A DNA stretch of 64,000 nt, taken from Niebla homalea. Lineage: Eukaryota; Ascomycota; Lecanoromycetes; Lecanorales; Ramalinaceae. This document shows, piece after piece, positions 1-64,000 of the stretch; within the stretch, counting starts at the first letter, position 1, and the number at the start of each line of letters is the position of its first letter. The position numbers and the translations under genes were made by a program. The notes under the pieces were generated by a model. That model did not search any database, had not been told where the DNA came from, and worked only from the letters and a program-made list of their open reading frames with translations. The stretch lies in contig JAHGAU010000013.1 of NCBI GenBank assembly GCA_019925105.1, positions 1,364,001-1,428,000 of the forward strand, in the 5' to 3' direction.

Positions 1-992
1 CCACGAAGCTTAGCCCCTCTGACAATGCGAGTCAAAGATGCTCTCAGGTTGTGCGGCACGAAAATTCGGTGGAGAGCAAGATTGAGTTCTTGAAATGGGG
101 CTGCGATGCATTTCTAGCATTCCTTGCCATATAGTGGTGTCTTCACATACTGCCCAAAGCTGTTGCAGCTGCTTAACATGCAGCTGAATTGGAGCCCATG
201 AAATCCTAGTCATAGGTACTCTCGACCAGATATCTCAACATACCAGTGGCAAGGCCGTGTCCGCGGCAATCGCGATGGACGACCGCCTGCGTAACCCAGC
301 AGAGCGTTCTGCTTACGATACCCAGCGACAAGCGAAAGCAGTGCCCACCAAGAATGCATGGATAACGGCTTTAATGTAAAAGAAGTCGGCTGCAGCAGGG
401 AGATACAGTTCGCAATCTGTCTAAGCTAAGTCGAACGTGGCGACCTGGGCAGCTCTTTGCGGAATTACGATTCTAGCTTCAGCAGACTTGAACATTGTGA
501 CCTACCTGCTATGTTATTTGATTCGTGCCAATCAGAAGCTAAAGCTTTAATAAGGACACCACTGCCATTTGGGCGATGTCATCCGTAATTTCGCTTTCAC
601 CATACGTCCAGTGATTCGTGCTTCATCGCTGCCGATTTTCGAGTGGAGTGGCATGTAATTTCCAGCGACCTGTTTCACATTCATATTACCTCACCTAAAT
701 GCTATCATGAGTGGTGGGAAAGTTTGACTTCAGTAGCGGAGGCTCAAGCCATGCTATGGTGCCTTACGTAAGCTCTTCTTGATTGGTGCATCGTTGAAGC
801 CGGAACCGAAGTTCGGAACCGACACGCATTTGGGAGGCTCGTTCAGAGCATCGTTGGCGGCCGAAAAGCAAATGGGTGACACTCCAATGTATATATATCG
901 CGCACTTATGTACATATGAGGTATTGTATATAGAGTCACAGCCTTCAATCTAGAGCCCCATCCTTCTCAAATCTCTAGGAATCCATCTCACA
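1..992. other. Region without a recognisable gene
   Basis: Only short ORFs are present on either strand (longest about 67 codons) and none resembles a known protein. The stretch ends in the upstream region of the dehydrogenase gene, with TA-rich runs around 890-930. Confidence 0.5.
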
Positions 993-1989
993 ATGGCAAC
1001 TTCTACCAACAATGCCCGCGACTCCCTTGCATCACGTATCCTGCCCCAAATGACCTTCTCAGATGGCTCTGAAGCTTCAATGACCGGACCGCCTCCACCG
1101 ATGCCTCACTATCTCACTGGCGAAGGGAGAGCAGTGAAGCGCTTCGCTATTGAGGGTAATGCAATGTGTACGTCGAGCAAGTGAAGGCTAGTAACTTTCT
1201 TACCCTTCGTCATATATTGCTTCGAGTATCTCATCCTAAAAGAACGTAGTGACTGGCGGAGGCGGCACTCTCGCCCTCACCACCGCGCGCGCCCTCCTCG
1301 AGCACGGCTTATCCGGCCTCCTCCTCGCCGACATCTCATTCTCCGAGTCCGCCAAAAACGAGATCCGGCAGCTCATCGCCGACTTTCCCGCCGCCCGACT
1401 CCACCACACCATCCTCGACGTCACCTCCGCTCCCAAGATCCAAGAAGCGGTCGACGACGCCACGCAACTCAACGGTCCCATCGACATCCTCATCTGCTTC
1501 GCCGGCGTCGTCTCCTGCACGCACGCCGTCGACACCACCCCCGAAGAGTGGCGCCGTACCCTTGACATCAACACCACCGGCGCTTTCCTCTCCGCCCAGG
1601 CCGTCGCCCGGAGCCTCATCGCCGCTAACACCCCAGGCAGCATCATCTTCATCGCCTCCATCTCGGCGCACAAGGTCAATTTCCCTCAACCGCAGGCCGT
1701 GTACAACGCCTCCAAAGCTGCGCTCCTGAGTCTGAAGTCCAGTCTGGCGGCCGAGTGGGCGGTACATGGAATTCGGGTGAATAGTATTAGTCCCGGGTAT
1801 ATGGATACCGTACTGAATGAAGGGGAAGGCTTGGCCGAGGCGAGGAGGGTGTGGAACGAGAGGAATCCGATGGGGAGGATGGGGCAACCGGAGGAGGTGA
1901 CCGGAGCGGTGGTATTGTTGTGTAGCGGTGCGGGGAGTTATATGACCGGCATGGACTTGCGAGTGGATGGAGGGCAGTGTTGTATTTAG
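993..1989 (+). CDS. Short-chain dehydrogenase/reductase (SDR), one intron
   Basis: This is predicted to be a cytosolic NAD(P)-dependent oxidoreductase of the classical SDR family, about 304 residues. Exon 1 runs 993-1167 and exon 2 1250-1989; the 82-bp intron 1168-1249 starts GTACGT, ends TAG, and keeps the frame (codon TTG across the junction). The Rossmann motif TGGGGTLAL lies at about residues 60-68, the structural Asn in DINTT at about 166, the catalytic Ser in IASIS at about 195-197, and the YxxxK pair at Tyr210/Lys214, followed by SPGYMDT. CFAG replaces the usual NNAG. The N-terminal extension of about 58 residues resembles fungal sorbose/xylulose-reductase-like SDRs, but the substrate cannot be inferred. 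Its mirror copy lies beyond the right edge of the window. Confidence 0.9.
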
Positions 1990-2172
1990 GTAATGGCTAT
2001 ATTTGGTGGAAAGGTTGAGAGCCAGGTCATTGGAAGAAGGCAAATCAGGTGTAGGAACGTAATGCCGAGAATTCGGAATCATCCTGAAAATTCAATTCAG
2101 GGCTTGAATTATTTTTCAGTATCCTATCGGGACCAAGACAGTCGTTCGTAAGCATAACAGAACGATTCAAAT

Positions 2173-3750
2173 TCATATTGCAGTCGCTGGCCGACTATTA
2201 CCACCGTTCTTCCTCTTACCCTTGACAAAGAAAACTGATCTCAGACGTTTGAGCTTTGCCCACCTCTCATCATCCTTTTTCCTCCTATCAACCTCGTCTT
2301 GTTCTGAACTGAGACCATTCGTCGCTTCACTGATGATGCTAGCACCGTCATCATGTTCAACATTCGGTGTCTCGACAGGGCCATCACCTGCTGCACGTCT
2401 CTTGACCGACTTTTTTTTGCTCCACCTGCTTTGCACCCCAATTCCTCAGCGCCCTGACCTGCATCTCCCAGCCTGCCAATCCATCCAACGATCCCCTGGC
2501 ACTCTCCTCCTCACGAATGTGGCCGTTTTGAGAGCTTGCACTGATCCAAGGACAGTAGTCTCGGTGCTCGCTCATAACGTCGAGATGCTCCATACTTGGA
2601 ACTCGGGCATCATCCGGATCTTCGGATGATGATGGAGGAGCTTTGAATAGCCACAGCCCCAGTCGTCGGAAACAGGCGCTGCACGTTGCTAAGCCGGGGA
2701 TGTGTCCATCTTCTTCTGCGTGCCAGCCAAATAGGGCGAGGAGGAGAGCTGGAGTGCTGACCTCAGACAAAGGAGGAGCGGTCTCAGCGGTGGATGTGTT
2801 TTCAGGTGAGGAGCCATTCCGGGGTTTCGAGGGCGCTGGCTGAGCTTGGAGGAACTTGCGAGCAATTGGCACGAAGGTGGACAAGTCCAAGATTTCGGGA
2901 GTGGTGAGTGTAGCAGGAAGCTCCGCGGCCATGGCATTCAGAGAGTGGTAGCGCTGGTGAAGTCCCTCAAGGGCGGCGGCTTGATTGATCAGCGGAAGGC
3001 GGTGGATGGTATCTACAATTGGGCTTAGCCAAAAGTCGGGAAGCAGAGGAGAGGAATCGTACCATCACAACCTCGTCTTCGCCACAAACAAGACCCCTCG
3101 TGTGCGCTCGAGATCATCTCCGCATATTTCTTCACCAATTCCTTCTGAGCTTCATCGCGCCATTCTTCGTCCGACTCGTTCGGGTCTGTGAGGTCTTCTT
3201 CTTCCGCTGCTGCTGCTTCTTCTTCCCCACTATCACGACTGGGGCCTTGCGGCGGTCGGTCTCTCTCGAGCACGATGACTACCTCCTGCTCACATCCTCC
3301 AACGCATCTCACAGTCTCCTTTCTGACGCACGACCAGCCACGTTTCGCCCATGTCACCTCATTGATGCTATCAGGCTTGCTAAGCCATTTGTCCACATGC
3401 CTGTAGGTCTGGAGTCGCTGTAAGAATTGTGCTCTATCCCAAGGGGCAAAATTAGGTGGTGGCTTTCTAGGAGTAGCCGATGGTACAGGGGTTGCGGGGG
3501 AGAGTCGAGAGTCTCGTGGCAAAGGACGCGCTTCGGGTCTGATAGCTTTGCTGGACGGGACATAAGCTGAGGATGGTCTGTCGAGACGCGTTCGTTTGGC
3601 TGGTGGGGCTGCTGTCACTGGTAGAGTAGTCGTGGATCCATTGAAGGGGTTTTGGGAAGTTGGAGGAAGGCTCGTGGATGAGGCATTGGATGAGATGGTG
3701 TCTAACAGTCGGTGGAACTTGCGCTTGGTGGTTGACAGAGCGGTAGGCAT
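2173..3750 (-). CDS. C3HC zinc-finger (NIPA/Rsm1-like) nuclear protein, one intron
   Basis: The protein looks like the fungal Rsm1 family (C3HC zinc finger, NuBaID fold), linked in fission yeast to mRNA export and otherwise poorly characterised. The start is set at the ATG at 3748-3750, which opens MPTALSTTKRKFHRLLD, a typical family N-terminus; an upstream in-frame ATG at 3780 exists. Exon 1 is 3750-3063, intron 3062-3013 (50 bp, GT-AG), exon 2 3012-2173. The first zinc module shows Cys141, Cys149, Cys153, His217, Cys221 and Cys228, with an acidic insert at about 176-200. The second, in exon 2, has CSACFRRLGLW and HRDYCPW. The frame breaks at an eight-base T run (2411-2418, plus strand); seven bases would join the basic C-terminal tail and give about 508 residues. 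This is probably an assembly homopolymer error. Confidence 0.82.
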
Positions 3751-4618
3751 TGCAGAGAGGTCTTGCAGTTTTCGCGTCAAGGGTCACCGCACTCAAGTTG
3801 TAGATGCAATGTAGCATGATGCTATGTATTAAACTATCACGCTAGTATTAGCGTGGATCAATATTACCAGGCACATATTTACATCTTTCCATCCTTTCTT
3901 ATTCAATTCAGAGACTCGATGGTTGGTGATACTGTCTTACGAAGCTCGCCGATATCTGAGACCTGTGCTGATAGGGAATCGTATACTATATCCAGCACGA
4001 GCCACGATTCAGGCCGGGATCCTATATCGATTGTGAATGATGGATGATGCTTTCAGACATTGGCACCGAACATACACATCATCCATCTTTCGTGAAAATA
4101 GTCTCCGTCATGCTGTTAGGAGCCCTTCGGAAGATGGCAGCCTGTGCTCGCGTCGTGGTCCAGAAGGTAGAAGTATGCTCTGTAACCCATTGAAACAAAC
4201 AGTGGTCGGTTGCTATGAAAGTCTGAAGTAAGTGGTCTGCCTGTGTCACAGGTCATCCCGTACCTGGTATGCGCGGCGACGCCTTCAATTCCAAGCCGGG
4301 AGAGGCGTCTGAACATCCTCACATTTACCATGCCGGAAGCATCCAGAAAAGCGAACTTAGTAAGTCTCATCCGGACTTGGATGTCTTGGTGATATGCAGG
4401 ATAAATCACACTAACATCACTTGCTGACGCAATCGTGCATCGATGATGCGAATACCATCGCGGATCTCTTCGGTAGTGATATCACAGCGCACGAGAAGCG
4501 GGCATAGGGGAAGGGGGACTTCATATCTCGCATATCATCTCGCATCTCATCTTGTATACGTAATATCATCATATATCTCTTCTCGTATATCCATCGTCGC
4601 AAACTGCAAACTACAATA
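3751..4618. other. Intergenic region, divergent promoters
   Basis: This lies between the divergently transcribed Rsm1-like and methyltransferase genes. It has only short unrecognised ORFs (longest 97 codons on the minus strand, 4116-4409). A run of ATAT/CTCATCT-type sequence at 4520-4590 immediately precedes the methyltransferase start and may be its leader. Confidence 0.5.
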
Positions 4619-5497
4619 ATGGCGTCCTCTGATACCAGCACTAATGGCGTCCTCGCCGGGGCGATGAATGGTTGGACTAAGCACGCCAATACCTACACCT
4701 GTGTCGAACGCATGACATTACCTCTGGCCATCGAGCTCGCTCAGTGGGTCAATTCAGTCTCTCCATTTGATACACCCGGAGCCTCCGCTCTGGACGACGG
4801 CTGTGGCGGCGGCGTGCTTGGCTCCGCTATCAAAACGATATGCCCTACCATATTCCTCCTTTCTTGTGATGTTGCGGAGGGAATGGTGTCTATGGCTCAA
4901 GTGCGCGCCGAGCGAGAAGGATGGGCTGCGCCCTGTGACTTTCAAGTTTTGGACGCACGTAATCTCAAAGGCATACTCGATGCAAGCATTACGCACCTGA
5001 TGAGCCAGTACATGATTTGTTTGGCACCCGATCCGGATCGTATCGCTGCAGAGATGTACCGGGTACTTAAGCCCGGCGGGGTGCTAGGTCTGGGTACGTG
5101 GGGAATGCCGCATTTCGACCATTTCTATGTTCCGTGGGTCACTGCGGCATGGAAGATGGGTGTCCTGAACTTTGAGGTTGTGGATCTTATGCCGCCAAGG
5201 TGGACACAGTCTGGATCTGTCAAAGACGCTTTGCAGGAAGCAGGTTTCGTGGAAGTGGAAACCAGGGAGAAGATCGTAGGTTGGGAGTTCGAGAGTTTGG
5301 CAAGGTGCATGCACTATGTGTTCAGGGAAGGCAATCCAGGCATGGAGACATACAAGCAGGCCTGGGTCAAGATCTCAGGACAAGACACGGATGTCTTCGA
5401 GCCCGTATATGCGGAAGAGATTGGGAAGTTGTATGGGAAAGAGGACGGCACGGTCGTCATACCCGTGAAGGCTGTACTTTGCATCGGGAGGAAATAG
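4619..5497 (+). CDS. SAM-dependent class I methyltransferase
   Basis: This single-exon ORF of 292 residues is predicted to be a cytosolic S-adenosylmethionine-dependent methyltransferase (Methyltransf_11/25-like). Motif I (ALDDGCGGGVLG, residues about 57-68) forms the SAM-binding loop and SCDVAEGM (about 82-89) follows at the second strand. The post-motif segment RVLKPGGVLGLGTWG is at about 148-162, and a variable C-terminal region begins with the helix SVKDALQEAGFVEVE. The ATG is preceded by an A-rich leader, and no signal peptide or membrane segment is seen. The acceptor may be a small molecule, as for secondary-metabolite methyltransferases of this type, but there is no biosynthetic cluster around it. 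It is fully open here; the mirror copy carries two single-base deletions. Confidence 0.88.
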   Translation: MASSDTSTNGVLAGAMNGWTKHANTYTCVERMTLPLAIELAQWVNSVSPFDTPGASALDDGCGGGVLGSAIKTICPTIFLLSCDVAEGMVSMAQVRAEREGWAAPCDFQVLDARNLKGILDASITHLMSQYMICLAPDPDRIAAEMYRVLKPGGVLGLGTWGMPHFDHFYVPWVTAAWKMGVLNFEVVDLMPPRWTQSGSVKDALQEAGFVEVETREKIVGWEFESLARCMHYVFREGNPGMETYKQAWVKISGQDTDVFEPVYAEEIGKLYGKEDGTVVIPVKAVLCIGRK

Positions 5498-5731
5498 CCA
5501 TCCTCTCCCTATTGTCCATTCCTGATCCTGCTTCCACTCTTTGTTCAGCTTCTTGATGCGAAGATGACATGTTGTCATATCCTAATTTTCATAGTGACTT
5601 GCTTCATGTACCAGCAATTATAGACCAGAACTACTAAGCGTCTCTTGCCTTACTAAACGACCAAATCAAGAATTAAATCCATAAACGTGTCATCGCTACT
5701 ACGATCAGTGAGCACCGGTCTTTATGACTTG

Positions 5732-7029
5732 TCAGCCTCTTCTAATTCCCGACCCTCTCTGCGCGATCGCCGGCCCAAGATACGAGTATGGCACAGAATG
5801 CCCGCCATTGACATTGTCCCGGAACGGTCCTTGCTCCCCAACCCCAGCGAATTCACAATTCGATGCCGCGTCTTCTGAAGGGCTTGCATGGCACTGCTTA
5901 TCCCAGACCAACGGCGCGAAGGTGTTGATGCAGAACGTATTCAAACCCGTAGAATCGATCCTCACGTTGGCCGCGCCACCGATGACGCCGTTCAAACTGC
6001 AGGCGTAGGGTCTCTCGAAAAGCAACTTACCCGTTGTCAGATTGGATGCTAGGATGCGCGTGATAGTGGCTCCGTAGTTTGTGGAAATATCATTTGGATT
6101 GAAATGCGCGAAGGAAGAACTGTATGCATCGCTGTACCACCACGCATCGCACACGCCCTGAGCGTTCTGCCCGTCTTTGCAGTCGCCCAGCTGATAGGGC
6201 AAGGCGATTTCGGTGCCGTTGGTTGAGAGCGCGACGGGGTCAGTATCCACACCAACGGTAATGGTGATGCCCATCTGGTCGAGAGTGTGCGAGATGAGGT
6301 AAGCGTAGAAGTTGTCCCTGAGGAAGCTCCTCAACATTACACTGGCTGGAAGGCTGGGCTCTGTAAAACTCCCCTGACTGCCGAAAGCAACGAATTCGGT
6401 GGCGTTACCGAGCACGGTGGTCAGAGTGTCGACCATTTTGCTTTGAACGCCTTGTTTGAAGCTCGCCAAGTCTGTGGCCACATCTCCTTCTGACATGACG
6501 TCGCACCCGAAATCCAAGGTCGAGACAACATTATTGGCGTCGATGGGGGTGTTGGCTACGGCAGTGCACCAGGTGGTGAAGCATTGGTTGATGCCTTACT
6601 TAGTTAACAGATCCCAAAAACACTTTGACGGGACTCAGAAGACCGCAACCCACCTGAAATGTTTCAAGAGTGTATAGCTCTGGTAGCGTTGGTCCACAAG
6701 GAGCTATAGGCCGGCACGAAAGATCACAAACTTTGGAACAATCGAAGTCAGAAAGCCCATTCACGAAATAGCAAGTGGAGAATCCTTCGCCTGCCTGGCA
6801 GGTGTTACTCTGCACCCATCCTAGACATAAGATGGGATGTCAAGGTCGGTGAAGCATTCGTTAGTGGGGCCTGTACGGGCCGTGCTGTTGCATTTCGTTG
6901 CCTGGCGTCGATGGAGACGCGACGATCGAGGTCAGGGTATGGCCGAAGCTGCGTGTGATGGATTTGCATAAGACAGGCTTGGGATCACAACTCCCAAGAG
7001 GATGGTTTGAGAAGACTCGAACAGAGCAT
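5732..7029 (-). pseudogene. Cysteine-rich secreted-type protein, probably degenerate 5' end
   Basis: No family was recognised. The 3' exon (up to about 6593) is open for over 260 codons, Cys-containing and with several NxT/S sites, consistent with an extracellular protein. A 5' segment (6815-6655) adds a Cys-rich stretch (SNTCQAGEGFSTCYFVNG). Upstream, the same frame continues through another Cys-containing stretch and a hydrophobic signal-like stretch (TILLGVVIPSLSYA). However, it is interrupted by an in-frame TAG just before GWVQSNTC and a TGA after the hydrophobic segment, and the nearest ATG (7027-7029) is in another frame. The GTGGGT donor near 6651 and the AG near 6594 do not join in frame. 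It may be a pseudogene, or a gene with unusual introns. Both arms share the stops. Confidence 0.55.
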
Positions 7030-7994
7030 TTTGGTGAGAGAAATGATTAGGGGATCGGCCTTGAAAAGAAAGGTGCTTTAAGATAATGCCGAATTACAAC
7101 ACGACCATGTACGAGAAATGGCATGACAATGATTGGAGCAGGAACCTCTTGTACATTTGGGTGCGGTTTCGGCCAAAGCAAATCTACCTAACGATCGATG
7201 TCAATGGCGGCTGGAACGAGCGACTTGTGAAGGACAATCAGACGCGCCGAAGTGACTTTATCATCTCATAATGACGACGAAAGCGCTGTGTGATGCCAGC
7301 GCTTGGGGCATACATTTGTGCTGTGATTCGGCGGCATCAGGCGGTGGGCCTTCGTAAAGGCGCTTGTAGGACTTTGGAACAGACCGCGCCTCATTCTCTT
7401 GGACCCCAAAAGGCAGCACCTCTCATAAGCTGGACTCTCGGATAAGTTTTGTTCCGTGATACAAGGAGGTCTAACATCCAAAGGTCATTGACTGTATTGA
7501 GGGGACCGTTTATACTTAACAGCCTGATTGCTCGGACCGCACCGCTTACTGTTGATACTGCGAGGTTAGTAAACGTTCGGAATCCTTTGAGACAGATTTA
7601 CCCCAATATGATCAAAGGTAAACGTCGCAGGCGCGATTAAGTCAGAGTTAAAAGTAGCTGCCAGGGTCCAGTATATCCACCAGCATGTTGGTTGTCAGTA
7701 CTTAAGGACCGTCGTCGCTCGAGCAACCAGCACAGACCCATCTGGACGCTCTGAGATAAATCGTGCTGCATCTTGAGACTGGTACTTGTCTCAGTCTCAG
7801 ACAGCAATGGGCACAATCAAAGGCTTCATACATTGCGCTCGCGCCTTCAATGGTCTTCAGGCTCTCATATGAATGAATGCTCCCAGTCTTTCATCCTTTG
7901 GCGCTCTCGTCCTCCTCTTATACTGTAGAAAAAGCCCACAACATTGCTTTTGGTACCATCATGGTAATCCCTTTATTAGGGGGAAATAGCAGTC
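7030..7994. other. Region without a recognisable gene
   Basis: Only short ORFs are present (61-71 codons) and none is convincing. A GTCTCAGTCTCAGAC repeat lies near 7787-7801. The right half probably holds the promoter of the downstream secreted-protein gene. Confidence 0.45.
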
Positions 7995-8593
7995 ATGAAG
8001 CTCCAGACCTTGCGGGTTTTATCCTGCCTCTTGACCATGGTTTCGAGGACCTTATCGTCCACTATACCCATCAACATTACCACGTTGGCACGCATCGCCA
8101 GCAATGCTCAGTCGTCAAATCGTGTCACATGTATTTCCCCGGACATCAGTTGCACCGTCCGATTGAATCAGACTGCAATCAACTCATTAGTACAATTTAC
8201 GCCTTACCGAACACATATCGAGAGATAACCTTTCAACAATGGTCCCCGCCGCAACCACTGCCTAGTGGCGTCGTCGGACTTCCGCACACCTTTGTCCACG
8301 AGACATGCTATATCACAATAGCCATGGGTCTCGGCTGTCAGAGCGACATCTCCACTCTTAGCGACCTCGCCATTTCCGCCCAGGTTGGCTCACTTGAATG
8401 TCTTCATTCAGTATTTCCCCTGTACTGCGGCGCTACGGTCCCGGGAGGCAGAGGGAATCGAATGGTCGTCATTGTATCTGGAGAGAGGCTACCAGAAAAT
8501 GACGAGAACAGGTACCTGACGTCAACTGGCTGTCCAGGTGAGGGGATTGCCTTTTCTGGGGATTCGAACAGGACGTCTGTGACTGCAAAGTAG
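7995..8593 (+). CDS. Small secreted seven-cysteine protein A (frameshifted in this arm)
   Basis: The gene starts MKLQTLRVLSCLLTMVSRTLSS, a hydrophobic secretion signal. In this arm the frame is lost at the CCCC run 8137-8140, where the mirror copy has five C. Without that loss the product is 199 residues, as seen intact in the other arm. Mature Cys lie at residues 46, 61, 105, 115, 136, 145 and 180, almost the same spacing as paralogue B about 600 bp downstream. Shared landmarks are CISP, LPHTF..TCY and AQVGS..CL. It belongs to a widespread, uncharacterised type of ascomycete secreted protein and could be an effector-like apoplastic protein. No enzymatic motif was seen. Confidence 0.75.
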
Positions 8594-9200
8594 AAGTTGG
8601 CAATTGCTGATCCTTACCAACGCCGAGTTTGAGCTATTGAGAATGCACGCGTTGAACATGATACTGACGACAATTCGTAGACCCAACTCTTTAAGTTGGC
8701 TACTGGGGAGCGTTAAAAGACAAGCCATCAGTTCATTTGATACATCTTTAGTATTGAGAACAGAGTTTGTATCACTGCGCGTACTCGACAACCGCTCTTA
8801 TGTCTTATATTTTAGGAGACTTGAACAGCAACAGCTCATAAGATGGTATAAAGTTCGACAACATGCCTCGACTCAAGCCCGATTCGAGTCTGAATTGACA
8901 CAAAATTCAGTCTAGATGAGACCTCATGCAATGCGACCCGTGCCGTAATTCTCTTTCTTGTGATGACGGGCGCGGCTATCGCCAACGATCTCAAACTGAA
9001 TGTCCTTGATTGCCAGATCCAGAAATGGAACAGTACGGCGCTTCTTAGTGGAATACTGCGATGGACGTCATTGAGGGCTCGCCGCATCAATCAGAAATAG
9101 GTACTTCTTCCTCATGTATAGGGTGATGTCCACTTTTCATAAGACGAATAGACAGCCACTACTGCTCCTCTCCGTGCAACCCTGACTGCTTTCGTTAGAG
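8594..9200. other. Intergenic region between the two secreted-protein paralogues
   Basis: Nothing convincing is present. A short open stretch around 8925-9100 begins with a hydrophobic segment (ILFLVMTGAAIA) resembling a signal peptide but has no ATG in frame; it may be a remnant of another secreted gene. Confidence 0.4.
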
Positions 9201-9788
9201 ATGGGATTGAGAACCAAGCAAATCACCGCTCTTCTTTTCGCCATGTTCGCAAGCATCACACCATTCGTCATATCGCCCAATGAAACCTCTACCGAATCCA
9301 TGACTAATGGAACCCTTTCGTCAGATCGGTCCAATCAGATAATATGCATCTCCCCGGCGAGCAATTTGGACCGACCTGATAAAGCAGACTGTGATGTGTT
9401 AATCAGTTCCATCTACAATTTACCGTTCGCGGATACACAGAGGACGTTTCGACGACCGCCCATCATCCACCCCAGGGACTTGCTGCTTCCGCACACTTTC
9501 CAACACCTGACCTGCTATGTCACAATAATCATCGCTGACGTCTGCTTCAGCGACATCGCAAGTCTCCGCGAGATCGCCTTGACGGCACAAGTTGGCTCTG
9601 TCCATTGTCTTCTACCAGTCTCACGTGGAAATCGGAACTGCGGCGCTAGAGTCACCGCAGGGAGAGCGGGTCGCATGAGCGTCATTGTGCATGGCAAGGC
9701 GTGGAATATGAACGCGTTCGATATGATTCTGCCACCAGCAGGCTGTCCGAGTGTGGAGGCATTGGATTCCAGTGTCCAGACAGCTTGA
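9201..9788 (+). CDS. Small secreted seven-cysteine protein B
   Basis: This single-exon ORF of 195 residues has an N-terminal signal (about residues 1-25, hydrophobic core ALLFAMFASITPFVI), then a Ser/Thr-rich linker with N-glycosylation sites. The Cys-patterned domain has cysteines at 49, 64, 105, 115, 136, 147 and 182. The pattern and motifs (CISP, DC..LISSIY.LP, LPHTF, TCYVTI, AQVGS) match paralogue A, so the two are a tandem duplicate pair in the same orientation. It is predicted to be secreted and disulphide-bonded, with unknown function. This arm is open; the mirror copy loses a G after CGARVTAG and frameshifts. Confidence 0.8.
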   Translation: MGLRTKQITALLFAMFASITPFVISPNETSTESMTNGTLSSDRSNQIICISPASNLDRPDKADCDVLISSIYNLPFADTQRTFRRPPIIHPRDLLLPHTFQHLTCYVTIIIADVCFSDIASLREIALTAQVGSVHCLLPVSRGNRNCGARVTAGRAGRMSVIVHGKAWNMNAFDMILPPAGCPSVEALDSSVQTA

Positions 9789-10965
9789 ACTTGCCTCGCT
9801 AGTTGAGCATGAGTCTTTCGAGAATGTGAAGGGGTCATGGGGCACACATTGTTATAGCACGAGTTGGAGCGAAGTCTTCTGCTGGCAGCTGACATAGTGT
9901 CGACGGTATTGCTGGTGCGGCAATTGCGCGTTCTGCACGCTACTTAGGGGCCAGGCTTCTTGGACCAGTACACGCAATGATATGAAACAATGTCTCAGCC
10001 CCCATAATTCGCTCTCTTCCAGCCGACAGTAACCGTCGTCGTTACTTACTGGAGAGGCCTTCTTCCCAGACAGCGATCATGAGATCAGCTTCTACTAATC
10101 GTGGTCAAACACAAGGCCGGTCTGGTCAGCCTCCTCGAGCTCCTATGAGTCTGACATTTGAGACCCTCAAAAGCCAGCCATCGCTCCGTGACGAGATTGG
10201 TCACAAACCCAAGAACCTTGAGATGCGTTCTCCCTATAATCGATCTCTCTGTGTTGTGGCATCTTTCCGTAGGACTGCCGCATCTTTATATTTACCATCC
10301 ACGGACTGAGGAGAGCTTTCGAGTGAAAACTGCAGCTGATAATCACTCACTAGACGTGTCGCATAATAATAATACTGGCTTTCAAACCGAGTTTCTTGAC
10401 CGAAATTGTATCCGTTACGGAGCGTTAAATCGAAATGATTACCTCAAAAACCACATCGGGTTCGTAAACAGTATGGCGGTGGATGGATACATGAGCTCTC
10501 AATCGCCTTTCAACCAGGCAGGAATGGTGGCTGCGGGACAGGTGCAGGAATGGAGGATGCTCGTGCATGGCAAGTAGGCGCTGGCCTAAGAGGAATATGT
10601 CATGATCCTTAGGGATTGGTGAAGGCGACTGCGAAGCACAAACCACTGCCCACGGTGGGCATCATTGTGCCATTCTATGAGGGAATATTAGGCGAGAAAG
10701 CAGGGAAAAGGGATTGCCGTGGAGCGCCGACGAGCATAAAGGTAGCACTCAACAGAGATAATGCTAAAGTATGAAGTGATTTGACTACGATACGAAAGAT
10801 TGTGGTACTTATGCCCCGTCAAGGACCCTTTCGATCACATCACGTGGACTGTAATGCTTGCATAAGACGAACGGTATGCAGGTTACGCGGCGCGAATGAT
10901 CCTTGCTTGTTCCAGTGCTTTACTTGCCTCTCTTACTCGATCCTCTTCCCGCCATACCCCAGCAA
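9789..10965. other. Mostly non-coding region with a possible third secreted-protein remnant
   Basis: No intact gene is seen. An ORF ending at 10577 finishes with GMVAAGQVQEWRMLVHGK, reminiscent of the C-terminal part of paralogue B (GRAGRMSVIVHGK). It lacks a signal peptide and most cysteines, so 10361-10577 could be a decayed third family member. The rest (10578-10965) shows nothing. Confidence 0.35.
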
Positions 10966-12644: not shown

Positions 12645-12669
12645 GATTTAATGTGGCGATTGAGCAATT

Positions 12670-21641: not shown

Positions 21642-21731
21642 AACTGTAAAAACAGCAGCCCGGTATAATGCTATAAATATCAGCTGAATTGTAAGCTTTT
21701 ATATTTATAGTAAAAATTAACGGAAAATAGG

Positions 21732-44936: not shown

Positions 44937-45053
44937 TAGCTCCCGGGGGGGGTTGGCGCATATACCTACCATGCGTACACCACCCATATCATAGCTACCT
45001 TCATAGCTATTATTCATTCATTACTAGGACCTACCTACTTTAGTACCCTAACA
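44937..45053 (-). mobile_element. Truncated LTR-like repeat, mirror copy
   Basis: This is the reverse complement of 21732-21845. The central G run is longer here (seven or more G) than on the left. Confidence 0.6.
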
Positions 45054-45143
45054 CCTATTTTCCGTTAATTTTTACTATAAATATAAAAGCTTACAATTCA
45101 GCTGATATTTATAGCATTATACCGGGCTGCTGTTTTTACAGTT

Positions 45144-53565: not shown

Positions 53566-54108
53566 TTAATGACACATGCACGCGGTAATTCTTACGGGAT
53601 GTACCTTTCTGGAGGATTGTCGGCCATAAACAGTAACCCGATGGCTCCCTTCACGCTGTGCGCTGATCTCCCGCGTTCCAGGTCGATTATTGGTGGGATG
53701 ATTGCCAAGAACCGATATCGATCCAGGCTCCCAAGCGACATTCGTGAATGGCCTCATATTTTTAATCTCGGAAGGGTTCCCAGTGGCCTGACTCACTCTG
53801 AGGTAGGTGTCGCTGATTTCTCCATCAATGGAGGTCTTTCCCATAGCCCTTTCAAACAATCCCTCAGCAAGCATGAGACATTGATGTGACTCTGGATGAT
53901 AATCTTCGTCAAGTCGCGCAACTGGAGAGAGACCATATGAACCCGGTGAGATCACTGATGTGCCGACATCTATAATTGATGCAAGACATTGGTTCTGTTC
54001 ATCGTTGACTGAATTGCCCCTCCTTGGCAACAGGTATATATATGGTGGCCATGTCTTTGCAGGTCCCAGGTCCCTCCCCCTACGGTATCCTCCAAAGGCC
54101 ATCTCCAA
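53566..54108 (-). CDS. Hypothetical ORF, 180 codons, mirror copy
   Basis: This encodes the same protein as the ORF at 12670-13212, with the same reservations: no domain, and it may be a chance ORF. Confidence 0.25.
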   Translation of the reverse strand: MEMAFGGYRRGRDLGPAKTWPPYIYLLPRRGNSVNDEQNQCLASIIDVGTSVISPGSYGLSPVARLDEDYHPESHQCLMLAEGLFERAMGKTSIDGEISDTYLRVSQATGNPSEIKNMRPFTNVAWEPGSISVLGNHPTNNRPGTREISAQREGSHRVTVYGRQSSRKVHPVRITACMCH

Positions 54109-54133
54109 AATTGCTCAATCGCCACATTAAATC

Positions 54134-55809
54134 ATGAAACAAACGACCCCACATCTGGTGCTCCTGGCCTTGGCCACCTTACAGACGGTAGCTTCTCCCT
54201 TTGCATCTTTTACTGATCCAGAGGTAGCTGAGGAGTATGCAATTGATCTTCTCGAACGCACCTTTCCCGACGAATACACGAATGGTTCAGAATTTGAAAA
54301 ACGACAAGGCAGACGACTGCCAAGGCCAGGATCGAGCTTTCTGAACTATCATAGCGATCTCCTCTGATTCAGTCGCCTTTGGAGGCAATGATAGCGACCT
54401 TGCCGGGCAATTTCAATTCATCAACGGTGTCAGCAGTCTGGCGTGGACAGCCGAGTATGAGAACTTCACTGCACCCTTGAAGTATAACATCACGGCCGAT
54501 TTTGGGTACTGCAATACGAGCATCCTGACCTCTACTGATGCCGGGGTATACACTTATGCCAATGGGACGACCACGAACTCGACTAGATTCATTGACATCG
54601 TGGCAGATGTGCACAAATTGACCAACACGAAGAACTACTCAGACACACAGGCCATGAGCGATCACCTCGTCCTACAGGCGTTATTGGTCGTACAAGAGCT
54701 CAATGATGCCTTGAGCTACATACCTAAGCTCTGCGATGCGAGGAATCAGAGCATGCTGGTGCCCGGGAGCAGATGAGCCCACCTCCAAGCGACACTCAAA
54801 GAGTCCAGTACGTCCACGACGAGCTTCGCCGGAAGCTACTCATGTTGCAAGATATACAACCTGCTGGGAGTGATGATGGCTCGGATGCAGCTGAAGAAGG
54901 TAGAGCAGGCCCTACTATCCCCGCAGGTGCAACGCCCATCGCGACCTTCATCTCAACAGCCTCCGCCAGCCCCGTGGCCACCGCCGCGCTCCTTCCAGGC
55001 CCGACACGGCACGGATATAACTTCTATGTTGGAGTGGGGTCACCTATTACCGCTGTTGTCGGCTCTGCTGGTGGGTTCGTCAACCAAATTGCGTGGAAGC
55101 GGGGAGATATCAACGCGGTGGATTGGTCTTCAGTGACTGGCTCAGCCATCGGGCTTCTTCTTGGCTTTATCATCGCGGCTGCATTTCTCGGACGCTTATT
55201 AACATTCGGAACGTTCAATCAGGCTGGCGCGCAGACCGCCCACCTCATCAACAACCCCGCTGATACCATCCTAAGACCAATCGCCCGCAACACTGGCAAC
55301 GTGAGGAGGCGTGTCGTCAACACGTCACGAGAGACGGTGACGAACTTGGCCGTGTTGGCGAATCTGCGACGGATCGTCCAAGCGCAAAACGTGCGGATTG
55401 CGGAGCTTGAAAGGGAGGCACGAGAGAGTGGACTCAGTGGACGCCCCTCGGATGACCCCCTGGGCGCGAATGAGCTAAGACAGACCGGTTTCTCAAGAGC
55501 TCTCCCTGCGAGCGCATTCGGTCATTCTGGCGCTGGCTCGTCGGGTTTCGATGGAGGCGGGAATACCAACAGCACTGTACCCGGAGCTGATGCCGACCAA
55601 GGCGTATGTGATCTTGAGCAAGAAGCCGCGGCCGCTGCTGCAGGGCTCGGGTTCCTACAAGGGCCCTTTGCATTTACCTATGAGGATGCCGTCAACGCTG
55701 GGCTGGAGAACGCTACTGAATGCAGCCAGTGCCTGAAGGCGAGGAGCTGTTCCGTGACGATGTGAGTAGGGACTCGGGCGGTCACTGTCATTACCCAGGG
55801 GGAAACTAA
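54134..55809 (+). CDS. Single-span membrane protein with propeptide, frameshifted mirror copy
   Basis: This is the mirror of 10966-12644. The frame is lost after NYHSDL (two C missing at about 54360), regained, and lost again at about 54768 (GGG where the left has GGGG). The long 330-codon segment 54773-55765 then passes through the point where the left arm breaks and shows the C-terminal region (Gly/Ser-rich, then VCDLEQEAAAAAAGLG). A final G deletion at about 55718 changes the last residues and ends at ARSCSVTM; the left-arm frame ends instead at the TAA matching 55807-55809. Confidence 0.68.
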
Positions 55810-56987
55810 TTGCTGGGGTATGGCGGGAAGAGGATCGAGTAAGAGAGGCAAGTAAAGCACTGGAACAAGCAAGGATCATTCGCGCCGCGTAACCTGCATA
55901 CCGTTCGTCTTATGCAAGCATTACAGTCCACGTGATGTGATCGAAAGGGTCCTTGACGGGGCATAAGTACCACAATCTTTCGTATCGTAGTCAAATCACT
56001 TCATACTTTAGCATTATCTCTGTTGAGTGCTACCTTTATGCTCGTCGGCGCTCCACGGCAATCCCTTTTCCCCTGCTTTCTCGCCTAATATTCCCTCATA
56101 GAATGGCACAATGATGCCCACCGTGGGCAGTGGTTTGTGCTTCGCAGTCGCCTTCACCAATCCCTAAGGATCATGACATATTCCTCTTAGGCCAGCGCCT
56201 ACTTGCCATGCACGAGCATCCTCCATTCCTGCACCTGTCCCGCAGCCACCATTCCTGCCTGGTTGAAAGGCGATTGAGAGCTCATGTATCCATCCACCGC
56301 CATACTGTTTACGAACCCGATGTGGTTTTTGAGGTAATCATTTCGATTTAACGCTCCGTAACGGATACAATTTCGGTCAAGAAACTCGGTTTGAAAGCCA
56401 GTATTATTATTATGCGACACGTCTAGTGAGTGATTATCAGCTGCAGTTTTCACTCGAAAGCTCTCCTCAGTCCGTGGATGGTAAATATAAAGATGCGGCA
56501 GTCCTACGGAAAGATGCCACAACACAGAGAGATCGATTATAGGGAGAACGCATCTCAAGGTTCTTGGGTTTGTGACCAATCTCGTCACGGAGCGATGGCT
56601 GGCTTTTGAGGGTCTCAAATGTCAGACTCATAGGAGCTCGAGGAGGCTGACCAGACCGGCCTTGTGTTTGACCACGATTAGTAGAAGCTGATCTCATGAT
56701 CGCTGTCTGGGAAGAAGGCCTCTCCAGTAAGTAACGACGACGGTTACTGTCGGCTGGAAGAGAGCGAATTATGGGGGCTGAGACATTGTTTCATATCATT
56801 GCGTGTACTGGTCCAAGAAGCCTGGCCCCTAAGTAGCGTGCAGAACGCGCAATTGCCGCACCAGCAATACCGTCGACACTATGTCAGCTGCCAGCAGAAG
56901 ACTTCGCTCCAACTCGTGCTATAACAATGTGTGCCCCATGACCCCTTCACGTTCTCGAAAGACTCATGCTCAACTAGCGAGGCAAGT
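55810..56987. other. Mostly non-coding region, mirror of 9789-10965
   Basis: It carries the same possible third secreted-protein remnant (minus strand, ending at 56199) and short ORFs only. Confidence 0.35.
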
Positions 56988-57576
56988 TCAAGCTGTCTGG
57001 ACACTGGAATCCAATGCCTCCACACTCGGACAGCCTGCTGGTGGCAGAATCATATCGAACGCGTTCATATTCCACGCCTTGCCATGCACAATGACGCTCA
57101 TGCGACCCGCTCTCTCCTGCGGTGACTCTAGCGCCGCAGTTCCGATTTCCACGTGAGACTGGTAGAAGACAATGGACAGAGCCAACTTGTGCCGTCAAGG
57201 CGATCTCGCGGAGACTTGCGATGTCGCTGAAGCAGACGTCAGCGATGATTATTGTGACATAGCAGGTCAGGTGTTGGAAAGTGTGCGGAAGCAGCAAGTC
57301 CCTGGGGTGGATGATGGGCGGTCGTCGAAACGTCCTCTGTGTATCCGCGAACGGTAAATTGTAGATGGAACTGATTAACACATCACAGTCTGCTTTATCA
57401 GGTCGGTCCAAATTGCTCGCCGGGGAGATGCATATTATCTGATTGGACCGATCTGACGAAAGGGTTCCATTAGTCATGGATTCGGTAGAGGTTTCATTGG
57501 GCGATATGACGAATGGTGTGATGCTTGCGAACATGGCGAAAAGAAGAGCGGTGATTTGCTTGGTTCTCAATCCCAT
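56988..57576 (-). CDS. Small secreted seven-cysteine protein B, frameshifted mirror copy
   Basis: This matches paralogue B up to CGARVTAG, where one G is missing (about 57117) and the frame shifts into an unrelated tail. The original stop is still present at 56988. The first six cysteines are encoded in frame, the seventh is not. Confidence 0.75.
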
Positions 57577-58182
57577 CTCTAACGAAAGCAGTCAGGGTTG
57601 CACGGAGAGGAGCAGTAGTGGCTGTCTATTCGTCTTATGAAAAGTGGACATCACCCTATACATGAGGAAGAAGTACCTATTTCTGATTGATGCGGCGAGC
57701 CCTCAATGACGTCCATCGCAGTATTCCACTAAGAAGCGCCGTACTGTTCCATTTCTGGATCTGGCAATCAAGGACATTCAGTTTGAGATCGTTGGCGATA
57801 GCCGCGCCCGTCATCACAAGAAAGAGAATTACGGCACGGGTCGCATTGCATGAGGTCTCATCTAGACTGAATTTTGTGTCAATTCAGACTCGAATCGGGC
57901 TTGAGTCGAGGCATGTTGTCGAACTTTATACCATCTTATGAGCTGTTGCTGTTCAAGTCTCCTAAAATATAAGACATAAGAGCGGTTGTCGAGTACGCGC
58001 AGTGATACAAACTCTGTTCTCAATACTAAAGATGTATCAAATGAACTGATGGCTTGTCTTTTAACGCTCCCAGTAGCCAACTTAAAGAGTTGGGTCTACG
58101 AATTGTCGTCAGTATCATGTTCAACGCGTGCATTCTCAATAGCTCAAACTCGGCGTTGGTAAGGATCAGCAATTGCCAACTT
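57577..58182. other. Intergenic region between the secreted-protein paralogues, mirror
   Basis: This is the mirror of 8594-9200; nothing convincing. Confidence 0.4.
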
Positions 58183-58782
58183 CTACTTTGCAGTCACAGA
58201 CGTCCTGTTCGAATCCCCAGAAAAGGCAATCCCCTCACCTGGACAGCCAGTTGACGTCAGGTACCTGTTCTCGTCATTTTCTGGTAGCCTCTCTCCAGAT
58301 ACAATGACGACCATTCGATTCCCTCTGCCTCCCGGGACCGTAGCGCCGCAGTACAGGGGAAATACTGAATGAAGACATTCAAGTGAGCCAACCTGGGCGG
58401 AAATGGCGAGGTCGCTAAGAGTGGAGATGTCGCTCTGACAGCCGAGACCCATGGCTATTGTGATATAGCATGTCTCGTGGACAAAGGTGTGCGGAAGTCC
58501 GACGACGCCACTAGGCAGTGGTTGCGGCGGGGACCATTGTTGAAAGGTTATCTCTCGATATGTGTTCGGTAAGGCGTAAATTGTACTAATGAGTTGATTG
58601 CAGTCTGATTCAATCGGACGGTGCAACTGATGTCCGGGGGAAATACATGTGACACGATTTGACGACTGAGCATTGCTGGCGATGCGTGCCAACGTGGTAA
58701 TGTTGATGGGTATAGTGGACGATAAGGTCCTCGAAACCATGGTCAAGAGGCAGGATAAAACCCGCAAGGTCTGGAGCTTCAT
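58183..58782 (-). CDS. Small secreted seven-cysteine protein A (intact copy)
   Basis: This is the open version of the gene at 7995-8593: 199 residues, a signal peptide of about 22 residues, then Cys at 46, 61, 105, 115, 136, 145 and 180. From residue 105 to 136 the cysteine spacing is identical to paralogue B. The five-C run at the frameshift site joins CISP to GHQLHRP. It is predicted to be secreted and disulphide-stabilised, with unknown function. Confidence 0.8.
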   Translation of the reverse strand: MKLQTLRVLSCLLTMVSRTLSSTIPINITTLARIASNAQSSNRVTCISPGHQLHRPIESDCNQLISTIYALPNTYREITFQQWSPPQPLPSGVVGLPHTFVHETCYITIAMGLGCQSDISTLSDLAISAQVGSLECLHSVFPLYCGATVPGGRGNRMVVIVSGERLPENDENRYLTSTGCPGEGIAFSGDSNRTSVTAK

Positions 58783-59748
58783 GACTGCTATTTCCCCCTA
58801 ATAAAGGGATTACCATGATGGTACCAAAAGCAATGTTGTGGGCTTTTTCTACAGTATAAGAGGAGGACGAGAGCGCCAAAGGATGAAAGACTGGGAGCAT
58901 TCATTCATATGAGAGCCTGAAGACCATTGAAGGCGCGAGCGCAATGTATGAAGCCTTTGATTGTGCCCATTGCTGTCTGAGACTGAGACAAGTACCAGTC
59001 TCAAGATGCAGCACGATTTATCTCAGAGCGTCCAGATGGGTCTGTGCTGGTTGCTCGAGCGACGACGGTCCTTAAGTACTGACAACCAACATGCTGGTGG
59101 ATATACTGGACCCTGGCAGCTACTTTTAACTCTGACTTAATCGCGCCTGCGACGTTTACCTTTGATCATATTGGGGTAAATCTGTCTCAAAGGATTCCGA
59201 ACGTTTACTAACCTCGCAGTATCAACAGTAAGCGGTGCGGTCCGAGCAATCAGGCTGTTAAGTATAAACGGTCCCCTCAATACAGTCAATGACCTTTGGA
59301 TGTTAGACCTCCTTGTATCACGGAACAAAACTTATCCGAGAGTCCAGCTTATGAGAGGTGCTGCCTTTTGGGGTCCAAGAGAATGAGGCGCGGTCTGTTC
59401 CAAAGTCCTACAAGCGCCTTTACGAAGGCCCACCGCCTGATGCCGCCGAATCACAGCACAAATGTATGCCCCAAGCGCTGGCATCACACAGCGCTTTCGT
59501 CGTCATTATGAGATGATAAAGTCACTTCGGCGCGTCTGATTGTCCTTCACAAGTCGCTCGTTCCAGCCGCCATTGACATCGATCGTTAGGTAGATTTGCT
59601 TTGGCCGAAACCGCACCCAAATGTACAAGAGGTTCCTGCTCCAATCATTGTCATGCCATTTCTCGTACATGGTCGTGTTGTAATTCGGCATTATCTTAAA
59701 GCACCTTTCTCTTTCAAGGCCGATCCCCTAATCATTTCTCTCACCAAA
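58783..59748. other. Region without a recognisable gene, mirror of 7030-7994
   Basis: Only short ORFs are present; it contains the presumed promoter of secreted protein A. Confidence 0.4.
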
Positions 59749-61045
59749 ATGCTCTGTTCGAGTCTTCTCAAACCATCCTCTTGGGAGTTGTGATCCCAAG
59801 CCTGTCTTATGCAAATCCATCACACGCAGCTTCGGCCATACCCTGACCTCGATCGTCGCGTCTCCATCGACGCCAGGCAACGAAATGCAACAGCACGGCC
59901 CGTACAGGCCCCACTAACGAATGCTTCACCGACCTTGACATCCCATCTTATGTCTAGGGATGGGTGCAGAGTAACACCTGCCAGGCAGGCGAAGGATTCT
60001 CCACTTGCTATTTCGTGAATGGGCTTTCTGACTTCGATTGTTCCAAAGTTTGTGATCTTTCGTGCCGGCCTATAGCTCCTTGTGGACCAACGCTACCAGA
60101 GCTATACACTCTTGAAACATTTCAGGTGGGTTGCGGTCTTCTGAGTCCCGTCAAAGTGTTTTTGGGATCTGTTAACTAAGTAAGGCATCAACCAATGCTT
60201 CACCACCTGGTGCACTGCCGTAGCCAACACCCCCATCGACGCCAATAATGTTGTCTCGACCTTGGATTTCGGGTGCGACGTCATGTCAGAAGGAGATGTG
60301 GCCACAGACTTGGCGAGCTTCAAACAAGGCGTTCAAAGCAAAATGGTCGACACTCTGACCACCGTGCTCGGTAACGCCACCGAATTCGTTGCTTTCGGCA
60401 GTCAGGGGAGTTTTACAGAGCCCAGCCTTCCAGCCAGTGTAATGTTGAGGAGCTTCCTCAGGGACAACTTCTACGCTTACCTCATCTCGCACACTCGACC
60501 AGATGGGCATCACCATTACCGTTGGTGTGGATACTGACCCCGTCGCGCTCTCAACCAACGGCACCGAAATCGCCTTGCCCTATCAGCTGGGCGACTGCAA
60601 AGACGGGCAGAACGCTCAGGGCGTGTGCGATGCGTGGTGGTACAGCGATGCATACAGTTCTTCCTTCGCGCATTTCAATCCAAATGATATTTCCACAAAC
60701 TACGGAGCCACTATCACGCGCATCCTAGCATCCAATCTGACAACGGGTAAGTTGCTTTTCGAGAGACCCTACGCCTGCAGTTTGAACGGCGTCATCGGTG
60801 GCGCGGCCAACGTGAGGATCGATTCTACGGGTTTGAATACGTTCTGCATCAACACCTTCGCGCCGTTGGTCTGGGATAAGCAGTGCCATGCAAGCCCTTC
60901 AGAAGACGCGGCATCGAATTGTGAATTCGCTGGGGTTGGGGAGCAAGGACCGTTCCGGGACAATGTCAATGGCGGGCATTCTGTGCCATACTCGTATCTT
61001 GGGCCGGCGATCGCGCAGAGAGGGTCGGGAATTAGAAGAGGCTGA
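59749..61045 (+). pseudogene. Cysteine-rich secreted-type protein, mirror copy
   Basis: This has the same arrangement as 5732-7029, including the in-frame TGA and TAG upstream of the Cys-rich segment. One extra lesion is a missing dinucleotide at about 60494 (CACTCG where the left arm has CACTCTCG), which splits the 3' exon into ORFs ending at 60537 and starting at 60503. Confidence 0.55.
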
Positions 61046-61278
61046 CAAGTCATAAAGACCGGTGCTCACTGATCGTAGTAGCGATGACACGTTTATGGAT
61101 TTAATTTTGATTTGGTCGTTTAGTAAGGCAAGAGACGCTTAGTAGTTCTGGTCTATAATTGCTGGTACATGAAGCAAGTCACTATGAAAATTAGGATATG
61201 ACAACATGTCATCTTCGCATCAAGAAGCTGAACAAAGAGTGGAAGCAGGATCAGGAATGGACAATAGGGAGAGGATGG
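61046..61278. other. Short convergent intergenic region
   Basis: This is the 3' flanks of the convergent Cys-rich gene and the methyltransferase. Nothing else was seen. Confidence 0.4.
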
Positions 61279-62155
61279 CTATTTCCTCCCGATGCAAAGT
61301 ACAGCCTTCACGGGTATGACGACCGTGCCGTCCTCTTTCCCATACAACTTCCCAATCTCTTCCGCATATACGGGCTCGAAGACATCCGTGTCTTGTCCTG
61401 AGATCTTGACCCAGGCCTGCTTGTATGTCTCCATGCCTGGATTGCCTTCCCTGAACACATAGTGCATGCACCTTGCCAAACTCTCGAACTCCCAACCTAC
61501 GATCTTCTCCCTGGTTTCCACTTCCACGAAACCTGCTTCCTGCAAAGCGTCTTTGACAGATCCAGACTGTGTCCACCTTGGCGGCATAAGATCCACAACC
61601 TCAAAGTTCAGGACACCCATCTTCCATGCCGCAGTGACCCACGGAACATAGAAATGGTCGAAATGCGGCATTCCCCACGTACCCAGACCTAGCACCCGCC
61701 GGGCTTAAGTACCCGGTACATCTCTGCAGCGATACGATCCGGATCGGGTGCCAAACAAATCATGTACTGGCTCATCAGGTGCGTAATGCTTGCATCGAGT
61801 ATGCCTTTGAGATTACGTGCGTCCAAAACTTGAAAGTCACAGGGCGCAGCCCATCCTTCTCGCTCGGCGCGCACTTGAGCCATAGACACCATTCCTCCGC
61901 AACATCACAAGAAAGGAGGAATATGGTAGGGCATATCGTTTTGATAGCGGAGCCAAGCACGCCGCCGCCACAGCCGTCGTCCAGAGCGGAGGCTCCGGGT
62001 GTATCAAATGGAGAGACTGAATTGACCCACTGAGCGAGCTCGATGGCCAGAGGTAATGTCATGCGTTCGACACAGGTGTAGGTATTGGCGTGCTTAGTCC
62101 AACCATTCATCGCCCCGGCGAGGACGCCATTAGTGCTGGTATCAGAGGACGCCAT
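61279..62155 (-). CDS. SAM-dependent methyltransferase, frameshifted mirror copy
   Basis: This is the mirror of 4619-5497. The SAM-binding region is in frame from 62155, then one G is missing at about 61892 (after DVAE) and another at about 61696 (in KPGG). The gene therefore appears as three overlapping ORFs. Both lesions are G-run contractions. Confidence 0.8.
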
Positions 62156-63023
62156 TATTGTAGTTTGCAGTTTGCGACGATGGATATACGAGAAGAGATA
62201 TATGATGATATTACGTATACAAGATGAGATGCGAGATGATATGCGAGATATGAAGTCCCCCTTCCCCTATGCCCGCTTCTCGTGCGCTGTGATATCACTA
62301 CCGAAGAGATCCGCGATGGTATTCGCATCATCGATGCACGATTGCGTCAGCAAGTGATGTTAGTGTGATTTATCCTGCATATCACCAAGACATCCAAGTC
62401 CGGATGAGACTTACTAAGTTCGCTTTTCTGGATGCTTCCGGCATGGTAAATGTGAGGATGTTCAGACGCCTCTCCCGGCTTGGAATTGAAGGCGTCGCCG
62501 CGCATACCAGGTACGGGATGACCTGTGACACAGGCAGACCACTTACTTCAGACTTTCATAGCAACCGACCACTGTTTGTTTCAATGGGTTACAGAGCATA
62601 CTTCTACCTTCTGGACCACGACGCGAGCACAGGCTGCCATCTTCCGAAGGGCTCCTAACAGCATGACGGAGACTATTTTCACGAAAGATGGATGATGTGT
62701 ATGTTCGGTGCCAATGTCTGAAAGCATCATCCATCATTCACAATCGATATAGGATCCCGGCCTGAATCGTGGCTCGTGCTGGATATAGTATACGATTCCC
62801 TATCAGCACAGGTCTCAGATATCGGCGAGCTTCGTAAGACAGTATCACCAACCATCGAGTCTCTGAATTGAATAAGAAAGGATGGAAAGATGTAAATATG
62901 TGCCTGGTAATATTGATCCACGCTAATACTAGCGTGATAGTTTAATACATAGCATCATGCTACATTGCATCTACAACTTGAGTGCGGTGACCCTTGACGC
63001 GAAAACTGCAAGACCTCTCTGCA
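62156..63023. other. Intergenic region, mirror of 3751-4618
   Basis: The same divergent promoter region; no gene recognised. Confidence 0.45.
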
Positions 63024-64000
63024 ATGCCTACCGCTCTGTCAACCACCAAGCGCAAGTTCCACCGACTGTTAGACACCATCTCATCCAATGCCTCATCCAC
63101 GAGCCTTCCTCCAACTTCCCAAAACCCTTCAATGGATCCACGACTACTCTACCAGTGACAGCAGCCCCACCAGCCAAACGAACGCGTCTCGACAGACCAT
63201 CCTCAGCTTATGTCCCGTCCAGCAAAGCTATCAGACCCGAAGCGCGTCCTTTGCCACGAGACTCTCGACTCTCCCCGCAACCCCTGTACCATCGGCTACT
63301 CCTAGAAAGCCACCACCTAATTTTGCCCCTTGGGATAGAGCACAATTCTTACAGCGACTCCAGACCTACAGGCATGTGGACAAATGGCTTAGCAAGCCTG
63401 ATAGCATCAATGAGGTGACATGGGCGAAACGTGGCTGGTCGTGCGTCAGAAAGGAGACTGTGAGATGCGTTGGAGGATGTGAGCAGGAGGTAGTCATCGT
63501 GCTCGAGAGAGACCGACCGCCGCAAGGCCCCAGTCGTGATAGTGGGGAAGAAGAAGCAGCAGCAGCGGAAGAAGAAGACCTCACAGACCCGAACGAGTCG
63601 GACGAAGAATGGCGCGATGAAGCTCAGAAGGAATTGGTGAAGAAATATGCGGAGATGATCTCGAGCGCACACGAGGGGTCTTGTTTGTGGCGAAGACGAG
63701 GTTGTGATGGTACGATTCCTCTCCTCTGCTTCCCGACTTTTGGCTAAGCCCAATTGTAGATACCATCCACCGCCTTCCGCTGATCAATCAAGCCGCCGCC
63801 CTTGAGGGACTTCACCAGCGCTACCACTCTCTGAATGCCATGGCCGCGGAGCTTCCTGCTACACTCACCACTCCCGAAATCTTGGACTTGTCCACCTTCG
63901 TGCCAATTGCTCGCAAGTTCCTCCAAGCTCAGCCAGCGCCCTCGAAACCCCGGAATGGCTCCTCACCTGAAAACACATCCACCGCTGAGACCGCTCCTCC
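63024..64000 (+). CDS. C3HC zinc-finger Rsm1-like protein, partial mirror copy
   Basis: It starts at the ATG 63024 and is cut by the window end. The intron is 63710-63759. Two C-run contractions, at 63125-63127 (CCC, left arm has four) and 63273-63276 (CCCC, left arm has five), break exon 1 before the zinc module. The zinc module itself (CVRKETVRCVGGC ... HEGSCLWRRRGC) is intact. Confidence 0.8.

Follow-up and report, generated by a model that had tools for sequence, protein, structure and literature searches.

Is the palindrome of more than 60 kb that fills a stretch of the Niebla homalea genome (Ascomycota; Lecanoromycetes) a duplicated piece of chromosome, or was it made during sequencing and assembly? 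The stretch of 64,000 nucleotides, here called the window, corresponds to positions 1364001-1428000 of contig JAHGAU010000013.1 (C13; 1,443,298 bases) in assembly GCA_019925105.1, which holds 50,566,743 bases in 52 contigs. An original prediction for this locus offered both a very large inverted duplication and a fold-back assembly product. We find that the palindrome is almost certainly a fold-back artefact at a chromosome end, and not real duplicated genome. The left arm is the normal right-hand end of the chromosome that C13 represents, and the right arm is probably a poorly corrected tail, contributed by one or a few fold-back long reads.

Geometry of the palindrome and its place on the contig

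Window positions 2772-33213 match the reverse complement of 64000-33608 over 30,491 columns at 99.416% identity, with 31 mismatches and 116 gap openings, a symmetry far beyond chance. The arms are separated by 394 nt (33214-33607), in full agreement with the predicted palindrome of more than 60 kb and its spacer. In window coordinates, the parts are:

2772..33213, plus strand: left arm, as far as its mirror lies within the window (reverse-complement alignment, intact long open reading frames, better agreement with the copies on contigs C11, C33 and C14)
33214..33607, plus strand: spacer, more distal subtelomeric repeat, on one strand only (alignment, junction, composition)
33608..64000, minus strand: right arm, reverse complement of the left, continuing through to the last base of C13 (alignment, differences, frameshifts)

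When neighbouring stretches of the contig are included, the full arms align between C13:1351413-1397213 and 1397608-1443298 (45,875 columns, 99.274% identity, 75 mismatches, 201 gap openings), giving an arm length of ~45.8 kb and an entire palindrome of ~91.9 kb. This extent lay outside the view of the original prediction, which had both arms running to the window edge. The right arm is indeed cut by that edge, but window 1-2771 still belongs to the left arm, with its mirror falling beyond the window. On the contig, the right arm stops at 1443298, the last base of C13, and its outer flank is empty: the second arm is cut there, followed by neither a telomere nor any other, independent sequence. 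Three kilobases taken from the arm (window 15001-18000) have only two matches in the genome, both on C13, and the 4 kb just inside the inner limit of the palindrome (C13:1347001-1351000) have no near-identical second copy in the assembly, their next-best long matches being dispersed repeats of 81-84% identity.

The spacer, composed of 246 A, 60 G, 85 T and 3 C, is asymmetric, in that the G-rich strand of the left arm is carried on through it and then switches abruptly to the complementary strand. The same locus is copied on the opposite strand, adjacent to the first copy and offset by 394 nt.

Subtelomeric setting of the turn

Followed outwards, the left arm passes from a gene-rich part (window 1401-21400, 50.6% GC) through an AT-rich block into a tract of strong G and A skew, in which the turn is located:

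21501..30000, no strand: AT-rich block, 23.9% GC, with a dinucleotide bias like that of repeat-induced point mutation (RIP; dinucleotide ratios)
30001..33607, plus strand: subtelomeric tract with strong G and A skew and TAAATAAAGGG-like units, G strand towards the chromosome end (skew; relatives at many contig tips)
33570..33597, plus strand: 28-nt landmark, ending 10 nt before the turn (motif search of the assembly)

The TA/AT ratio is 1.28 in the AT-rich block vs 0.62 in the gene-rich part, and (CA+TG)/(AC+GT) is 0.36 vs 1.34. Such RIP-like AT-rich blocks, together with the TTAGGG arrays found in the assembly, fit the earlier assignment of the stretch to fungal nuclear DNA.

To judge from the position of its relatives, the skewed tract at the turn is a subtelomeric repeat. 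Among the matches listed, relatives lie on the minus strand at the starts of, for example, C1, C2, C6, C8, C14, C17, C19 and C41, and on the plus strand at the ends of C7, C20, C22 and C40. The same matches include exceptions in orientation: close to the starts of C11, C21 and C34 the copies lie on the plus strand, and close to the end of C33 both orientations occur. TTAGGG arrays border AT-rich skewed sequence of this kind at two places, the end of C20 and the start of C22. The closest relative of the spacer is found on the minus strand of C29 (1717-2124; 84%).

The 28-nt landmark has seven other copies in the assembly at up to two mismatches (control 0). For five of these the distance to the contig tip is 9 nt (C7), 29 nt (C41), 45 nt (C6), 54 nt (C22) and 241 nt (C2), so that five contigs all stop within 9-241 nt of one landmark. 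The tips of C2, C6 and C7 and the end of C22, as read, contain no TTAGGG array. From these positions, the turn sits about where several other contigs stop, not demonstrably at a telomere.

Differences between the arms

The full alignment contains 276 events, comprising 75 substitutions and 201 indels, and 147 of the 201 indels fall in homopolymers of at least three bases. Relative to the left arm, the right arm shows 140 losses of bases against 61 gains (binomial p 2.5e-8), and 78 of the 276 events are concentrated within the last 2 kb of C13. In the 28-kb gene-rich part, 48 indels are accompanied by 7 substitutions, and 34 of the 48 indels lie in homopolymers, which make up 14% of the bases there. 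Real duplicate copies are not expected to diverge mainly by homopolymer-loss indels. The differences are neither mutation-like nor shared between the arms, and the second arm carries what appear to be uncorrected read errors.

Related subtelomeric copies elsewhere in the assembly provide an independent vote on which arm is correct. Matches below 85% identity or shorter than 300 columns were excluded, and lesser matches that overlapped others were dropped; as the genes occur nowhere but on C13, the vote covers only the few subtelomeric kilobases. At indel sites, C11 agrees with the left arm, the right arm or neither in 18, 0 and 1 cases, C33 in 10, 0 and 1, and C14 in 5, 1 and 1, so that 33 of 37 comparisons favour the left arm and one the right (the stretches overlap, and some sites are counted repeatedly). 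The corresponding figures for substitutions are 11, 6 and 0 for C11, 7, 0 and 0 for C33, and 1, 1 and 1 for C14, while the single stretch retained from C34 spans no difference between the arms.

Window 30244-32520 in the left arm and C11:974645-976925 share ~2.3 kb of subtelomeric sequence at 97.5% identity, far closer than the other pairs seen. This likeness suggests either that chromosome ends exchanged sequence recently or that the assembly has a related fault there.

Open reading frames in the two arms

The open reading frames (ORFs) considered here are mechanical calls and not gene models; seven were scanned against Pfam, and three gave matches. Four are listed:

1249..1989, plus strand: ORF with a short-chain dehydrogenase domain; the arms carry identical copies, of which the mirrored one lies beyond the window (ORF calls, Pfam, arm comparison)
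3025..3780, minus strand: ORF with a zf-C3HC (NuBaID N-terminal) domain, whose right-arm counterpart is frameshifted (ORF calls, Pfam, arm comparison)
4619..5497, plus strand: ORF with a methyltransferase domain (Pfam best match 4.4e-14)
11298..12644, minus strand: ORF of 448 amino acids with no Pfam match, frameshifted in the right arm (ORF calls, arm comparison)

In the left part of the window, the left arm has eight ORFs of at least 220 amino acids, and for six of them the right-arm counterpart is frameshifted; the remaining two overlap each other at a single locus, where the arms do not differ. The methyltransferase ORF, for example, occupies a single frame on the left and is broken into pieces over three frames on the right. 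Counted from stop to stop, the left and right arms have 17 and 10 ORFs at 200 amino acids, 7 and 4 at 250, 3 and 2 at 300, and 2 and 1 at 400. ARAGORN, run with the bacterial code, found no tRNA gene in the window, and no Rfam gene was found there either.

A probable fold-back read and its alternatives

A clean left arm, joined to a right arm that has lost homopolymer bases and is noisy up to the contig end, fits a fold-back read by which the assembler extended the contig. From the geometry, the contig end, the subtelomeric turn and the one-sided differences observed here, we infer an event at the level of the read. A long single-molecule read would run outwards on the G-rich strand of the left arm until the molecule ends near the chromosome terminus, whereupon the same read would carry on along the complementary strand of that duplex, picking up 394 nt further in. 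The assembler would then extend C13 by the reversed second copy and stop where the read stopped, and it would accept such a read because no ordinary read beyond the chromosome end contradicts it. The type of error indicates that the platform was most likely nanopore, and the right arm is probably supported by one or a few reads. Snap-back priming by the 3' end of the G strand itself is not supported as the cause, since the spacer is purine-rich to its end and could hardly pair with the neighbouring purine-rich strand.

Several observations weigh against a fold-back artefact. At the turn there is no TTAGGG array, and landmark copies on C29 and C32 sit 1.7 kb and 8.4 kb from the contig tip, which means that the chromosome does not have to end physically at the turn. 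No adapter was detected near the turn when five adapter sequences were compared with 100 shuffles of window 33001-33800: none scored better than the shuffles, four fell below the shuffle mean, and SMRTbell scored 13.0, with shuffles averaging 12.7 and reaching 18 at most; in PMC12870357, though, fewer than half of the fold-back reads had sequence at the turn that could be searched. At 394 nt, the offset of C13 is also larger than the default of 200 bp set in the detector of that work. C11 sides with the right arm at 6 of 17 substitutions; on re-alignment four of these six columns fall in one poly-A place, where the left-favouring C11 columns are equally doubtful, and the other two are adjacent bases elsewhere. 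Substitutions in the RIP direction number 33 from left to right and 17 in reverse, an excess that we judge to be mild and far below that expected from heavy RIP of a 45-kb duplicate. Among the reading frames, stop-to-stop counts are nearly equal in the left and right arms at 100 (46 and 49) and 150 amino acids (20 and 20), and a 330-amino-acid part of the 448-amino-acid ORF in the right arm (54773-55765) stays open and extends beyond the stop of the left arm, so that either arm may be the correct one at that place. Of the 104 contig ends, three besides that of C13 were tested (C33, C34 and the first 4 kb of C11), and none showed a second near-identical palindrome. Finally, nanopore reads of real inverted duplications are likewise reported to lose accuracy past the turn (PMC7229812), so the drop alone cannot tell an artefact from a real duplication.

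That last effect could explain part of the right-arm errors if the palindrome were a real, very young terminal inverted duplication, formed when the telomere was lost and sister chromatids fused or the end folded back. The symmetry of the arms and a subtelomeric turn lacking TTAGGG would suit such an origin, and chromosome 17 of Zymoseptoria tritici is reported to have undergone real sister-chromatid fusion (PMC3681731). We nevertheless consider it highly improbable, given the missing outer flank of the right arm, the 48:7 ratio of indels to substitutions in the gene-rich part, mostly homopolymer losses, and the agreement of the related copies with the left arm; moreover, reads entering from the far side should have corrected a real second arm as well as the first. 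The fused product, isodicentric or an intermediate of a breakage-fusion-bridge cycle, would be present in the sequenced culture, perhaps only in some nuclei. A breakage-fusion-bridge or template-switch duplication, as raised by the original prediction, is set aside on the contig geometry and the one-sided differences. Alternatively, the end of C13 might have its strands joined, or its sister chromatids fused, within the subtelomeric repeat at an offset of 394 nt, yielding a hairpin-capped or isodicentric form in few nuclei; the right arm would then be poorly corrected because few molecules carry the joined end, a combination to which we give very little credence.

The palindrome could also have arisen in the assembler with no fold-back read involved, through a graph walk that reversed in the low-complexity tract and rewrote the same edges in reverse. 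The tract is indeed of low complexity and has several weak inverted self-matches of ~72% near the turn, but edges written twice should share one consensus, and the right arm departs from the left, most densely in the last 2 kb. Such an error would also leave the stop of the copy at 45.7 kb unexplained, and it appears to us exceedingly improbable. Of the two readings first proposed, a fold-back product is strongly supported by the missing outer flank, the subtelomeric turn and the apparent errors, mostly on the right arm, and for the real inverted duplication we found no positive evidence.

Other contig ends

Tract matches had raised the suspicion of a palindrome of the same kind at C33, C34 and the start of C11, which the inverted self-matches did not bear out. 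The 15 longest are 73-83% identical in C33:681001-707865 and 72-86% identical in C34:1-14000. The last 2,865 bases of C33 have no near-identical second copy (best match 85%, on C8), and the first 4 kb of C11 show no inverted self-match, a length too short to exclude a palindrome. Subtelomeric tracts do stand head to head, plus strand and then minus strand, at C33:688-702 kb and C34:0.8-10 kb; with inverted matches of only ~72-86%, they are unlike the near-identical palindrome of C13.

Within the 1.63-Mb contig C11, two short TTAGGG arrays face each other ~1 kb apart (957494-958549), flanked by subtelomeric tracts at 955.5-956.0 kb (plus strand) and 974.6-977.4 kb (minus strand). This arrangement may represent a buried pair of chromosome ends, either from an old end-to-end fusion or from a misjoin. 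In the telomeric arrays at the end of C20 and at C11:958516-958572, TTAGG and TTAGGG units are mixed, possibly through loss of a G in base calling, or possibly as a real feature.

Consequences and comparison with known systems

As biology, the palindrome most likely does not exist. Caution is called for, as annotation could mistake the ~46 kb of false duplicate sequence that closes C13, most long ORFs of which are frameshifted, for a segmental duplication of recent date containing pseudogenes. In use, the C13 record is best truncated at 1397607 or earlier. The case also yields a test for such artefacts that needs no reads, namely a near-identical inverted copy at the contig terminus, running out at the very last base, combined with one-sided homopolymer indels polarised by related copies. 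Among the papers listed in literature searches, none was recognised as dealing with contig ends of this fold-back kind in fungi, although such work may exist.

The nearest fungal parallel is chromosome 17 of Z. tritici, for which sister-chromatid fusion and a breakage-fusion-bridge cycle are proposed, with a very large palindrome within an insertion (PMC3681731). As at C13, an inverted duplication of part of a chromosome is at issue, but the Z. tritici case is backed by pulsed-field gels, read depth and hybridisation, whereas C13 is known from assembled sequence only, has no outer flank and carries many frameshifts in its right arm. The real inverted duplications of PMC7229812 differ from C13, as we read it, in their nature, and resemble it in that the stretch past the junction is called worse, with missed bases, just as the right arm of C13 has lost more bases than it has gained.

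The closest likeness is to the fold-back reads of PMC12870357, which constitute ~0.55-0.6% of Oxford Nanopore genomic reads and hardly ever occur in the PacBio HiFi data of that study, in which three samples in total were PacBio. Those are individual reads, whereas the C13 palindrome is the end of an assembled contig, seen in the assembly and not in reads. In both, however, the second segment repeats the locus of the first from the opposite strand in a near-symmetric arrangement, and the published reads occur with or without sequence between the segments (~2 kb in example B), a pattern into which the 394-nt spacer of C13 falls.

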